A DNA stretch of 64,000 bases, from the NCBI GenBank assembly GCA_025454835.1, contig JALONQ010000008.1, positions 62,001 through 126,000 on the forward strand, given 5' to 3'. Source of the DNA: Bacteroidota bacterium (GTDB lineage: Bacteria > Bacteroidota > Ignavibacteria > UBA10030). The notes under the pieces are model-generated. The model was not told the origin of the DNA. It saw only the letters and a program-made list of their open reading frames with translations, and did no database searches. The position numbers and the translations under genes are program-made. Every line of letters starts with the position of its first letter. Within the stretch, counting starts at the first letter, position 1. This document shows, piece after piece, positions 9,621-60,117 of this stretch.

Positions 9621-9642
9621 CCCGCGCGATACTGAAGCAATA

Positions 9643-9762
9643 ACCGCCAAGACCGCCAAGGCACGTTCATGTGCAGATCCGAACGCACGTGCCGAGGCTG
9701 GTGGAGTTCATTCGACCGCCAAGGTGACCAAGCAAAGCATTTGACTTGGCGTCTTGGCGGTT
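9643..9762. repeat. Intergenic inverted repeat (CCGCCAAG/CTTGGCG words)
   Basis: The gap between the DUF4384 and CHASE2-cyclase genes holds an imperfect palindrome. The left arm (9643-9661) and right arm (9745-9762, CTTGGCGTCTTGGCGGTT) are reverse complements apart from one inserted base. The roughly 80-nt loop has a second copy of ACCGCCAAGG. Each arm is a double of an 8-9 nt word. It belongs to the gene-less hairpin group found throughout the window. Confidence 0.8.
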
Positions 9763-17412: not shown

Positions 17413-17676
17413 CTTGAAGGGCAGATCACGCAGAGCCGATTTGATCTCGACAGTCACACTGCTTTCCACGACTGGGTCGGCTCGGAAGGCGGTTCGGAGC
17501 ATCAAGAATTCGTGACGCAATAGTCCGACCACCTGCCGCTCGCGCGTCAGGCCAAGTTACGCTGGTTCGTACGACAGAGCTTCTTCGTAAGCCGATTCCA
17601 GCAGACCTGGTCCGAACGTTCGATGAGGAAAGAGGGCGCGATCCAGAAGCGCGACTGAGATCTGGTTGGCGTCCAC
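17413..17676 (-). pseudogene. GxxExxY protein (PD-(D/E)XK nuclease-like) pseudogene
   Basis: Translating the minus strand from GTG 17676 gives VDANQISVALLDRAL, then FGPGLLESAYEEALSYE, a TAA stop in frame, and then RTAFRADPVVESSV and TVEIKSALRDLPF in the same frame. This matches the intact GxxExxY gene at 35856-36233 throughout: GLLESVY against GLLESAY, and the Asp-x9-Glu-x-Lys core with identical spacing. One internal stop, a few missing codons after it, and loss of about the last 40 residues against the downstream peptidase gene mark it as decayed. GGGGAG precedes the GTG. A CGCAGAG-type repeat arm lies upstream at 17743-17777, at about the same distance as in the intact copy. Confidence 0.85.
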
Positions 17677-17742: not shown

Positions 17743-17777
17743 TCTCTCCGTGCTCTCTGCGAACTCTGCGTTTCCCT
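17743..17777 (-). repeat. CGCAGAG-type repeat arm next to the GxxExxY pseudogene
   Basis: On the minus strand this reads GGGAAACGCAGAGTTCGCAG followed by AGAGCACGGAGAG, the same vocabulary as the arm at 35752-35790 before the intact gene. About 66 nt separate it from the pseudogene start (65 nt in the intact copy). No matching second arm is left on the other side. Confidence 0.7.
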
Positions 17778-28719: not shown

Positions 28720-28802
28720 TTAACCACAGAGATCACAAAGAACACAAAGACCCTGGAAAACGTCGTTTCCCGATCTCTGTGTTCTTTGTGCTCTTTGTGG
28801 CC
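28720..28802. repeat. Intergenic inverted repeat (CACAGAG/CTTTGTG words)
   Basis: The left arm (28720-28750) has AACCACAGAGATCACAAAGA and the right arm (28774-28802) has GTTCTTTGTGCTCTTTGTGG. Loop about 23 nt. It is nearly the same text as the repeat at 24213. Confidence 0.85.
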
Positions 28803-32788: not shown

Positions 32789-32952
32789 GCAAACATTCCA
32801 AATGTCCAAACATTCCAGATTCCAAACAAATGGCAAGACCGCCAGATCTCCCAATGGGGTGGCTCGCAGTGAGGATCTCTGTCAGCGGTTTGGATGTCTG
32901 GCGGTTTGGAGCTCTGTTTGGAGTTTTGAATGTCTGGACATTTGGCATGTTT
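32789..32952. repeat. Imperfect palindrome of CCAAAC/GTTTGG words overlapping the polB 3' end
   Basis: The left arm has AACATTCCAAATGTCCAAAC (32790-32809) and GACCGCCAGATC. The right arm has GATGTCTGGCGGTTTGGAG and AATGTCTGGACATTTGG. The arms are complementary in stretches. The last 20 or so codons of the PolB gene are translated from the right arm, so the repeat supplies the C-terminus and stop. Confidence 0.75.
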
Positions 32953-35751: not shown

Positions 35752-36296
35752 GCACGCGGAGTCGCGAAGGACGCAGAGAGCGCAGAGGAAGCGGTGGTTG
35801 GAATATGATTTGGCAACCGTCTATATTTGCAAAGCCATTCATACGAGGGGGTTGTATGATTGAGAATGACATCTCTGGCACCGTCTTGGACTGTGCCATA
35901 TCCTTACACCGTCGCCTTGGACCCGGCCTTCTCGAATCTGTCTACGAAGAGGTCCTGACGTATGAATTGCGGAAACGGGGATTGCGCTGTTCTCGTCAAG
36001 AAGCCATCCCACTTGTCTATGACTCACTGCGCCTTGAGACGGCCTTTCGCGCCGATATCGTGGTTGAGCACGCTGTCATCCTCGAACTCAAATCGATCGA
36101 GTCGCTGCTTCCGGTTCACAAGAAACAGTTGCTGACCTACCTCCGTCTTTCTGGCTTCCATCTGGGCATTCTGATCAATTTTAATGTTCCTCTGATCCGG
36201 GACGGGTTTGTGTGCATTGTCAATCGCCTGTAATTTTATCATTCTCTCTGTGACCTTTGCGGTCTCTGCGCCTCTGCGCGATACCTCTTTTCCTCC
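35752..36296. mobile_element. Putative GxxExxY mobile element with inverted CGCAGAG-type ends
   Basis: Left end 35752-35790 contains GACGCAGAGAGCGCAGAGG. The right end 36243-36290, read on the minus strand, contains CGCGCAGAGGCGCAGAGACC and GGTCACAGAGAG. The two ends are inverted copies of the same short words and enclose the GxxExxY gene (35856-36233) with nothing else. It interrupts the spacing between the RecA-like gene and the 88-aa gene, and the RecA-like frame runs into its right end. A decayed second copy with the same left-arm spacing is at 17413-17777. No target-site duplication could be identified by eye. Confidence 0.65.
35856..36233 (+). CDS. GxxExxY protein, PD-(D/E)XK nuclease-like
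   Basis: A 125-residue protein of the family named for its GxxExxY motif, here G24-LL-E27-SV-Y30. The PD-(D/E)XK-like core is Asp67 in FRADIVV, then Glu77-Leu-Lys79 in VILELKS, and a helix with KKQLLTYLRLSG follows. The length equals the family norm (about 120-130). ATG 35856 follows GAGGGGGTTGT, and the upstream ATG 35805 adds 17 unrelated residues. It is opposite in strand to its neighbours, flanked by inverted repeats, and antisense to the false C-terminal extension of the RecA-like frame. Its biochemical activity is not known to me. Nuclease activity is inferred from the fold. Confidence 0.88.
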   Translation: MIENDISGTVLDCAISLHRRLGPGLLESVYEEVLTYELRKRGLRCSRQEAIPLVYDSLRLETAFRADIVVEHAVILELKSIESLLPVHKKQLLTYLRLSGFHLGILINFNVPLIRDGFVCIVNRL

Positions 36297-38197: not shown

Positions 38198-38228
38198 AAG
38201 GTCCTTCGCTGGTTGGTCCAAAAACACT

Positions 38229-38315
38229 CACGCAGAGACGCAGGGGACGCAGAGGCCGCAGAGAGAATAGATCGTATTCGCTCTGCGTTCTCCGCGCTCT
38301 CTGCGCCTCTGCGCG
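38229..38315. repeat. Gene-less hairpin of CGCAGAG words
   Basis: Left arm 38229-38263 (CACGCAGAGACGCAGGGGAC and GCAGAGGCCGCAGAG). Right arm 38281-38315 (CTCTGCGTTCTCCGC and CTCTGCGCCTCTGCGCG). The two are inverted with an 17-nt loop. Its words match the ends of the GxxExxY element at 35752-36296, which makes it the best candidate for a gene-less derivative. Confidence 0.85.
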
Positions 38316-38415
38316 ATCGCCCTTCGTCGAGAAGCGCATCTACGGTAGTAAGATACGGATTTTTCTCCGGGCACCCAAAGCGGCCAACGATGAAAAGATC
38401 CTCATGACATTGCGT

Positions 38416-60012: not shown

Positions 60013-60117
60013 AGCCACAAAGACCACATGGAACACAGAGAGCAATGAGGATCCTCATGGAGATCTTGAGGTGCTTCACCCTCTCTTTGTGTTCCTTCGT
60101 TGTGATCTCTGTGGCCA
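60013..60117. repeat. Intergenic inverted repeat (CACAAAG/CTTTGTG words)
   Basis: Left arm GCCACAAAGACCACATGGAA and CACAGAGAG; right arm CTCTCTTTGTGTTCC and TGATCTCTGTGGCC. Complementary with several mismatches. The loop is about 38 nt and contains an ATGAGGATCCTCAT palindrome. Located between the 175-aa and fucosidase genes. Confidence 0.75.

Follow-up and report, generated by a model that had tools for sequence, protein, structure and literature searches.

A lone GxxExxY gene, encoding a predicted PD-(D/E)XK nuclease of 125 amino acids, occupies positions 35856 to 36233 on the plus strand of the window, the 64,000-nucleotide stretch of DNA that was analysed. Profile matches, conserved residues and a structure model support the assignment, and the protein falls in the GPGLLE subclade, subclades being named by the residues around GxxExxY. 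A G-rich, Shine-Dalgarno-like GAGGGGG (35845–35851, plus strand) is of a type common to the flanks of GxxExxY and four-helix-bundle genes in this genome. Two inverted repeats enclose the gene; read on the plus strand, the left arm CGCGAAGGACGCAGAGAGCGCAGAGG (35763–35790) consists of CRCNRAG-type words and the right arm CTCTCTGTGACCTTTGCGGTCTCTGCGCCTCTGCGCG (36244–36281) of their complement, and the pair aligns with a score of 28. The neighbouring genes are on the minus strand, with a family B DNA polymerase (PF00136) and an 88-residue open reading frame (ORF) to one side and, to the other, an ORF with no Pfam match that is taken to be RecA/ImuA-like from its position and sequence. The initial annotation had described a single gene between inverted arms, running against its minus-strand neighbours, and the coordinates, profiles and orientation all confirm this.

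The protein gives whole-domain matches to TIGR04256 (136 bits, cut-off 35) and to PF13366 (PDDEXK_3, 131 bits, cut-off 22). PDDEXK_3 is the sole Pfam domain found and the HUH/Y1 transposase domain (PF01797) is absent. In an alignment of 34 GxxExxY proteins, G22, G24, E27, D67, K79, G104, N108 and F109 are invariant, with E77 and Q91 nearly so. The combination of D67 and K79 with E77 and Q91 is the signature of an active PD-(D/E)XK nuclease. Among the matches listed for the structure model (pLDDT 95), the nearest solved folds are SSO0001 (Z 8.8), which we take to be a Cas4-type nuclease, AF1548 (Z 8.2) and the archaeal Hjc (Z 6.6), and these are of the PD-(D/E)XK type. All have Z values below 9 and show, for the modelled protein, a PD-(D/E)XK fold rather than a substrate or a specific nuclease relative. 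A sequence search of solved structures returned nothing at E ≤ 1, no PADLOC (anti-phage defence) or PHROGs (phage) model matched the protein at E ≤ 0.001, and a search of phage records for the family found none. Eight plasmid records carry GxxExxY genes, all less than 60% identical, and provide no occupied/empty pair.

The 3.2 Mb genome contains nine GxxExxY copies. Decayed copies are numerous, with several per genome, and one of them lies in the window at 17428–17628 on the minus strand, where a single internal stop interrupts a 43-bit match to positions 13–79 of the TIGR04256 profile. Remnant arms are present on both sides at 17424–17437 (CACGCAGAG) and 17753–17773 (CTCTCTGCGAACTCTGCG), in agreement with the second, degenerate copy first reported from this stretch. 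Hairpins of such words with no gene, likewise reported as common, number four in the window: one of CGCCAAG words with a 78-nucleotide loop (9642–9762), one of CACAGAG/CACAAAG (28724–28800), one of CGCAGAG (38228–38316) and one of CACAAAG/CACAGAG (60015–60114). Their words have diverged and they are not near-identical recent copies. Across the genome a three-word arm pattern finds 97 matches, compared with one for the reversed control pattern. The hairpin at 38228–38316 lies between a ychF-like and an argC-like gene whose starts diverge and is missing from the related genome G014; a terminator was considered here and rejected on account of that position. The spacer orthologous to 28724–28800 in the one congener, G001, carries a hairpin of CGCGAAT words. 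Since the words differ at a shared site, either both arms have been rewritten together whilst remaining complementary or the site has been re-used. A long imperfect hairpin of approximately 165 nucleotides at 32791–32952, built of CATTCCAAA-type words and with relatives elsewhere in the genome, represents another word class for which no gene is known.

Does the unit come and go as a whole? A concatenated-flank query identified orthologous flanks for some elements only. At the site of the 35856–36233 gene, G001 also has a GxxExxY gene, whose arms are both made of different words (CGCAATG). Between the same anchors the spacer measures 715 bp here and 196–350 bp, with the gene absent, in eight other genera (G014, G008, G012, G033, G003, G006, G005 and G009). 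The site is therefore not generally conserved, in line with the reading of the initial annotation. A second site (L001) spans 552 bp with its element and an empty 49 bp in G012; a third (L007) approximately 610 bp with its element and, when empty, approximately 50 bp in G003 and 39 bp in G006; a fourth (L006) covers 620 bp when occupied and its flanking genes are adjacent in G014. At these four sites, compared between genera, arms and gene are present or absent as a discrete unit. The element has inverted arms of no fixed sequence at its ends, and the intergenic DNA is too diverged between genera to show a target-site duplication.

Other occupants of these sites were noted. In G007 the spacer of the 35856–36233 gene holds a DUF559 gene (PF04480, 106 bits; L100, G007:C44:28500-31000) flanked by its own C-rich, self-palindromic repeats. 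The spacer in G008, empty of the gene (L097), contains a hairpin of a different type, GGGTCATTCTGAATTCCGCTTCAGCGG.../...CTCAGAATGAC, which suggests that this spacer is a hot spot. At the G001 orthologue of the L001 site (L332, G001:C58:1900-5000) a GxxExxY gene has no upstream arm and a complete word hairpin lies directly downstream.

The arms of the 35856–36233 copy are imperfect (17–18 nucleotides, 83–88% complementarity) and their score of 28 is matched by 0.4% of 1,000 random flank pairs. Taken singly they are weak, and certainty comes from the GxxExxY family as a whole. Arms were assessed by aligning the 300 bp upstream of a gene to the reverse complement of the 300 bp downstream. A loose scoring scheme (+2/-2, gap -4/-1) was driven by length and gave no contrast to random window pairs; it was dropped in favour of a stricter one. 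The first set comprised 49 elements, the GxxExxY genes of the order together with the four-helix-bundle genes of this genome. Own pairs score 31.6 on average, as opposed to 18.5 (s.d. 3.6) for mismatched pairs; 1,000 random spots in the window also average 18.5, with a maximum of 28. The true partner arm ranks first for 27 of the 49 elements and in the top five for 40, and the own-pair total was reached by none of 20,000 permutations. A pan-phylum set was then drawn from one subclade, 80 loci being fetched from an all-phyla collection and 76 proving usable; the contigs were scanned with the GPGLLE alignment, the alignment of all subclades having no sufficiently conserved stretch. Here own pairs average 39.3 and mismatched pairs 20.7, again unmatched in 20,000 permutations. 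The set covers Bacteroidota, Cyanobacteria, Acidobacteria, Planctomycetes, Verrucomicrobia, Chloroflexi, Proteobacteria and one Methanosarcinales archaeon, whose arm reads AACCACAGAGGACACAGAGGGCACAGAG.

A typical arm starts with TTAAC followed by two to four words spaced at 8–11 nucleotides, mostly 9. In a set of 76 copies distinct from the pan-phylum loci, scores of at least 25 are seen for 54, so that most GxxExxY genes do have inverted flanks, and about a quarter have no clear arms; the pan-phylum loci give the same picture. The two arms of each copy match each other, not the arms of other copies.

The words are characteristic of the nuclease subclade. GPGLLE genes have CRCNRAG words, FLEKVYE genes CRCNGAT and FLEAVY genes CRCGAA(G/T), and the arms of FQEVIY genes start with GTCTGAA and contain GATT words. 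Tandem CRCNRAG, present twice on both sides, occurs at 60% of GPGLLE genes and in 55% of the pan-phylum set. It was seen at 1% of random spots and at no FLEKVYE, FQEVIY, four-helix-bundle or DUF559 locus (0%). When the 54 clear-armed copies are compared across genomes, those with more similar proteins also tend to have more similar arms (Mantel rho 0.27, 0/2,000), and arm-nearest neighbours share 58% protein identity compared with 40% overall. Because the word patterns had been read off the first set, held-out genomes were tested. CRCNGAT was present at 76% of 25 FLEKVYE loci and GTCTGAA at 69% of 29 FQEVIY loci, with CRCNRAG in none of either, and in both subclades the two arms of a copy once more resembled each other (0/10,000 permutations each). 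Different subclades keep their own words within one genome (G032, for example), so the pattern is not one of genome composition. Across phyla, the nuclease subclade and the type of word go together. The CGCAGAG-type words of the initial annotation are found at the 35856–36233 copy, but they are not fixed and vary between copies within the grammar of the subclade.

Gene-less hairpins of matching words track the presence of the gene, which 34 of 41 relatives carry, frequently as multiple copies. In a comparison of 41 genomes there are 9.4 arms per Mb where a GxxExxY gene is present and 0.5 where it is not. Genomes denser in GxxExxY genes are also denser in arms (Spearman 0.72, p 9e-8, a raw value that ignores kinship). 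The same holds, kinship likewise ignored, after controlling for four-helix-bundle genes (0.68) and after subtracting two arms per gene (0.49, p 0.001). In the same genomes arm density shows no link to DUF559 density (-0.18), and a weak link to four-helix-bundle genes vanishes once GxxExxY is controlled for. The 149 genomes of the class average 12.2 arms with the gene and 0.96 without (rho 0.65, kinship ignored). It had been expected that genomes with more GxxExxY genes would have more hairpins, and both samples support this. For the CRCNGAT pattern the partial correlation is 0.38 with FLEKVYE genes and 0.29 with others, a modest difference that also ignores kinship. One genome of the survey, G084, carries 206 three-word CRCNGAT arms and the FLEKVYE nuclease only as fragments; this expansion has apparently persisted beyond the loss of its nuclease, or is spread by MITEs.

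Two other gene families are similarly arranged. The genome contains 15 four-helix-bundle genes of TIGR02436, which we take to be the S23/IVP family of rRNA intervening sequences. These genes (L010–L024 in this genome; L054–L082) are flanked by inverted arms in which each copy has its own 7-mer. The arms have a strict 7-nucleotide period (z 19.8 at lag 7, 16.0 at lag 14); in GxxExxY arms the strongest signal is at lag 9 (z 7.5) and lag 7 shows none. DUF559 genes carry a third class of repeat, self-palindromic CCCCTCTC...GAGAGGGG with a AGGGGTGTG tail.

How does the element compare with known systems? By analogy it would work most like REP/RAYT, in which TnpA_REP is thought to spread REPs (PMC8266576). 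TnpA_REP (RAYT) with its REP, BIME and REPIN sequences likewise consists of one small nuclease-type gene beside palindromes at intergenic sites, with many gene-less, family-specific palindromes that track the gene in the same genomes. In contrast, GxxExxY is a PD-(D/E)XK protein with no HUH/Y1 domain, the arms are about three quasi-periodic words that vary between copies, and the gene is usually inside the inverted pair. MITEs are also short, gene-less inverted-repeat elements alongside an autonomous form, but the GxxExxY hairpins have no fixed terminal inverted repeat (TIR) or known transposase, and some are themselves nested in MITE-like repeats. PD-(D/E)XK homing endonucleases such as I-Bth0305I provide a precedent for a lone nuclease of this superfamily as a selfish gene, but GxxExxY has no intron and no fixed long target site, and has arms at its ends. 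The enzyme class and the code of variable-word hairpins fit no definition of REP/RAYT, IS, MITE or intervening sequence (IVS). In the openly licensed literature GxxExxY is named in two papers, neither of which appears to address its function, and open-licence papers gave neither a link between GxxExxY and hairpins nor a RAYT-like system with another nuclease.

We propose a minimal mobile element of approximately 0.5 kb, a GxxExxY nuclease gene and two inverted arms of about three short words that would insert together between genes. The nuclease would recognise words of its own class in hairpin form, in an extruded cruciform or in single-stranded lagging-strand DNA, and nick it, and host replication or repair would copy the hairpin into a new intergenic site. 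The protein would move its own copy and, in trans, gene-less hairpins, using metal-dependent PD-(D/E)XK chemistry where TnpA_REP uses its HUH tyrosine. On balance we regard such a REP/RAYT-like element, acting in trans on gene-less hairpins, as somewhat probable. The initial annotation had likewise seen an autonomous element with non-autonomous derivatives, and this reading holds up: most GxxExxY genes have inverted flanks, the site is not generally conserved, and hairpins are scarcer in genomes that lack the gene. That the element moves, and that its protein is the agent, we infer from sequence comparisons. The link between subclade and word, the parallels with four-helix-bundle and DUF559 genes, and hitch-hiking on MITEs go beyond that annotation.

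The arms are copy-specific yet always matched, which suggests that fold-back copying or conversion regenerates them. A broader proposal, which we advance tentatively and hold at a little under even, is that GxxExxY represents a class of mobile element spanning both domains, with a word code for each subclade read as a hairpin of about three words and arms rewritten in concert by fold-back copying. The S23/IVP four-helix-bundle genes (7-nucleotide words) and DUF559 genes (self-palindromic C-rich hairpins) would join it in a wider guild of hairpin elements with a single gene each. If true, the guild would also explain the origin of rRNA intervening sequences, a long-standing puzzle, and would tie three little-understood protein families to the low-complexity hairpins that abound between the genes of many genomes. 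For the GxxExxY family itself the data suggest a role open to testing, a probable substrate and a code linking protein to DNA word, and a nuclease that changes its target grammar as its own sequence changes would be a useful model of structure-specific recognition.

An unlikely alternative, though the best of those considered, is a domesticated nuclease that cuts or maintains hairpins serving the host as regulatory or genome-architecture elements, the arms beside the gene being autoregulatory. It would account for the dose relation between genes and hairpins, and the specificity of subclade for word is equally expected of site-specific processing. The closest prior description of such arrays, in Geobacter metallireducens, concerns multicopy intergenic octa- and heptanucleotides, tandem and paired on opposite strands, and reads them as predicted 'global regulator binding sites' with no protein link (PMC2700814). 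Against this, presence or absence at single sites, the multiple decayed copies per genome and the recurrence of one word class beside one subclade in many phyla and in archaea all indicate a travelling unit, and the divergent starts around 38228–38316 are a poor place for a terminator.

Might the nuclease be a mere passenger, with unrelated MITE-like transposases moving hairpins with or without the gene? TIR-bounded, MITE-like repeats (GTAACTACTCAGC, AGAGGTTGTCTCATAAGT and others) at several different sites of G094 and G084 (L333–L350) enclose word hairpins that have multiplied recently, and other transposases may therefore spread some of these hairpins. As a general account we consider this improbable, since a passenger leaves unexplained both the link of word class to subclade and that of arm density to the gene; moreover, the gene-less hairpins of the window vary in their words, and none was noticed to have such a TIR alongside.

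Slightly less probable again is an RNA element in which the arms form an RNA stem and spread proceeds through RNA and reverse transcription. The model is the intervening sequence of 23S rRNA in Leptospira and Coxiella, where an S23/IVP ORF sits in the loop between complementary arms; the armed four-helix-bundle genes of this genome belong to the same family (TIGR02436). The ends of an intervening sequence pair into a 28-bp stem that RNase III cuts, and an origin of such sequences as relics of mobile elements has been suggested (PMC4990558). The GxxExxY element, however, lies outside rRNA, between protein genes and in opposite orientation to them, its protein is unrelated to S23 and its words are spaced at 8–10 nucleotides. 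RNA folding of the whole copy is no better than that of shuffled sequences (z 0.23), and there is no Rfam match in the window. Finally, chance low-complexity sequence around ordinary genes, for which the 0.4% tail reached by the 35856–36233 copy singly might be cited, can be dismissed for practical purposes, being refuted by the permutations in the two large sets and in the two held-out subclades.
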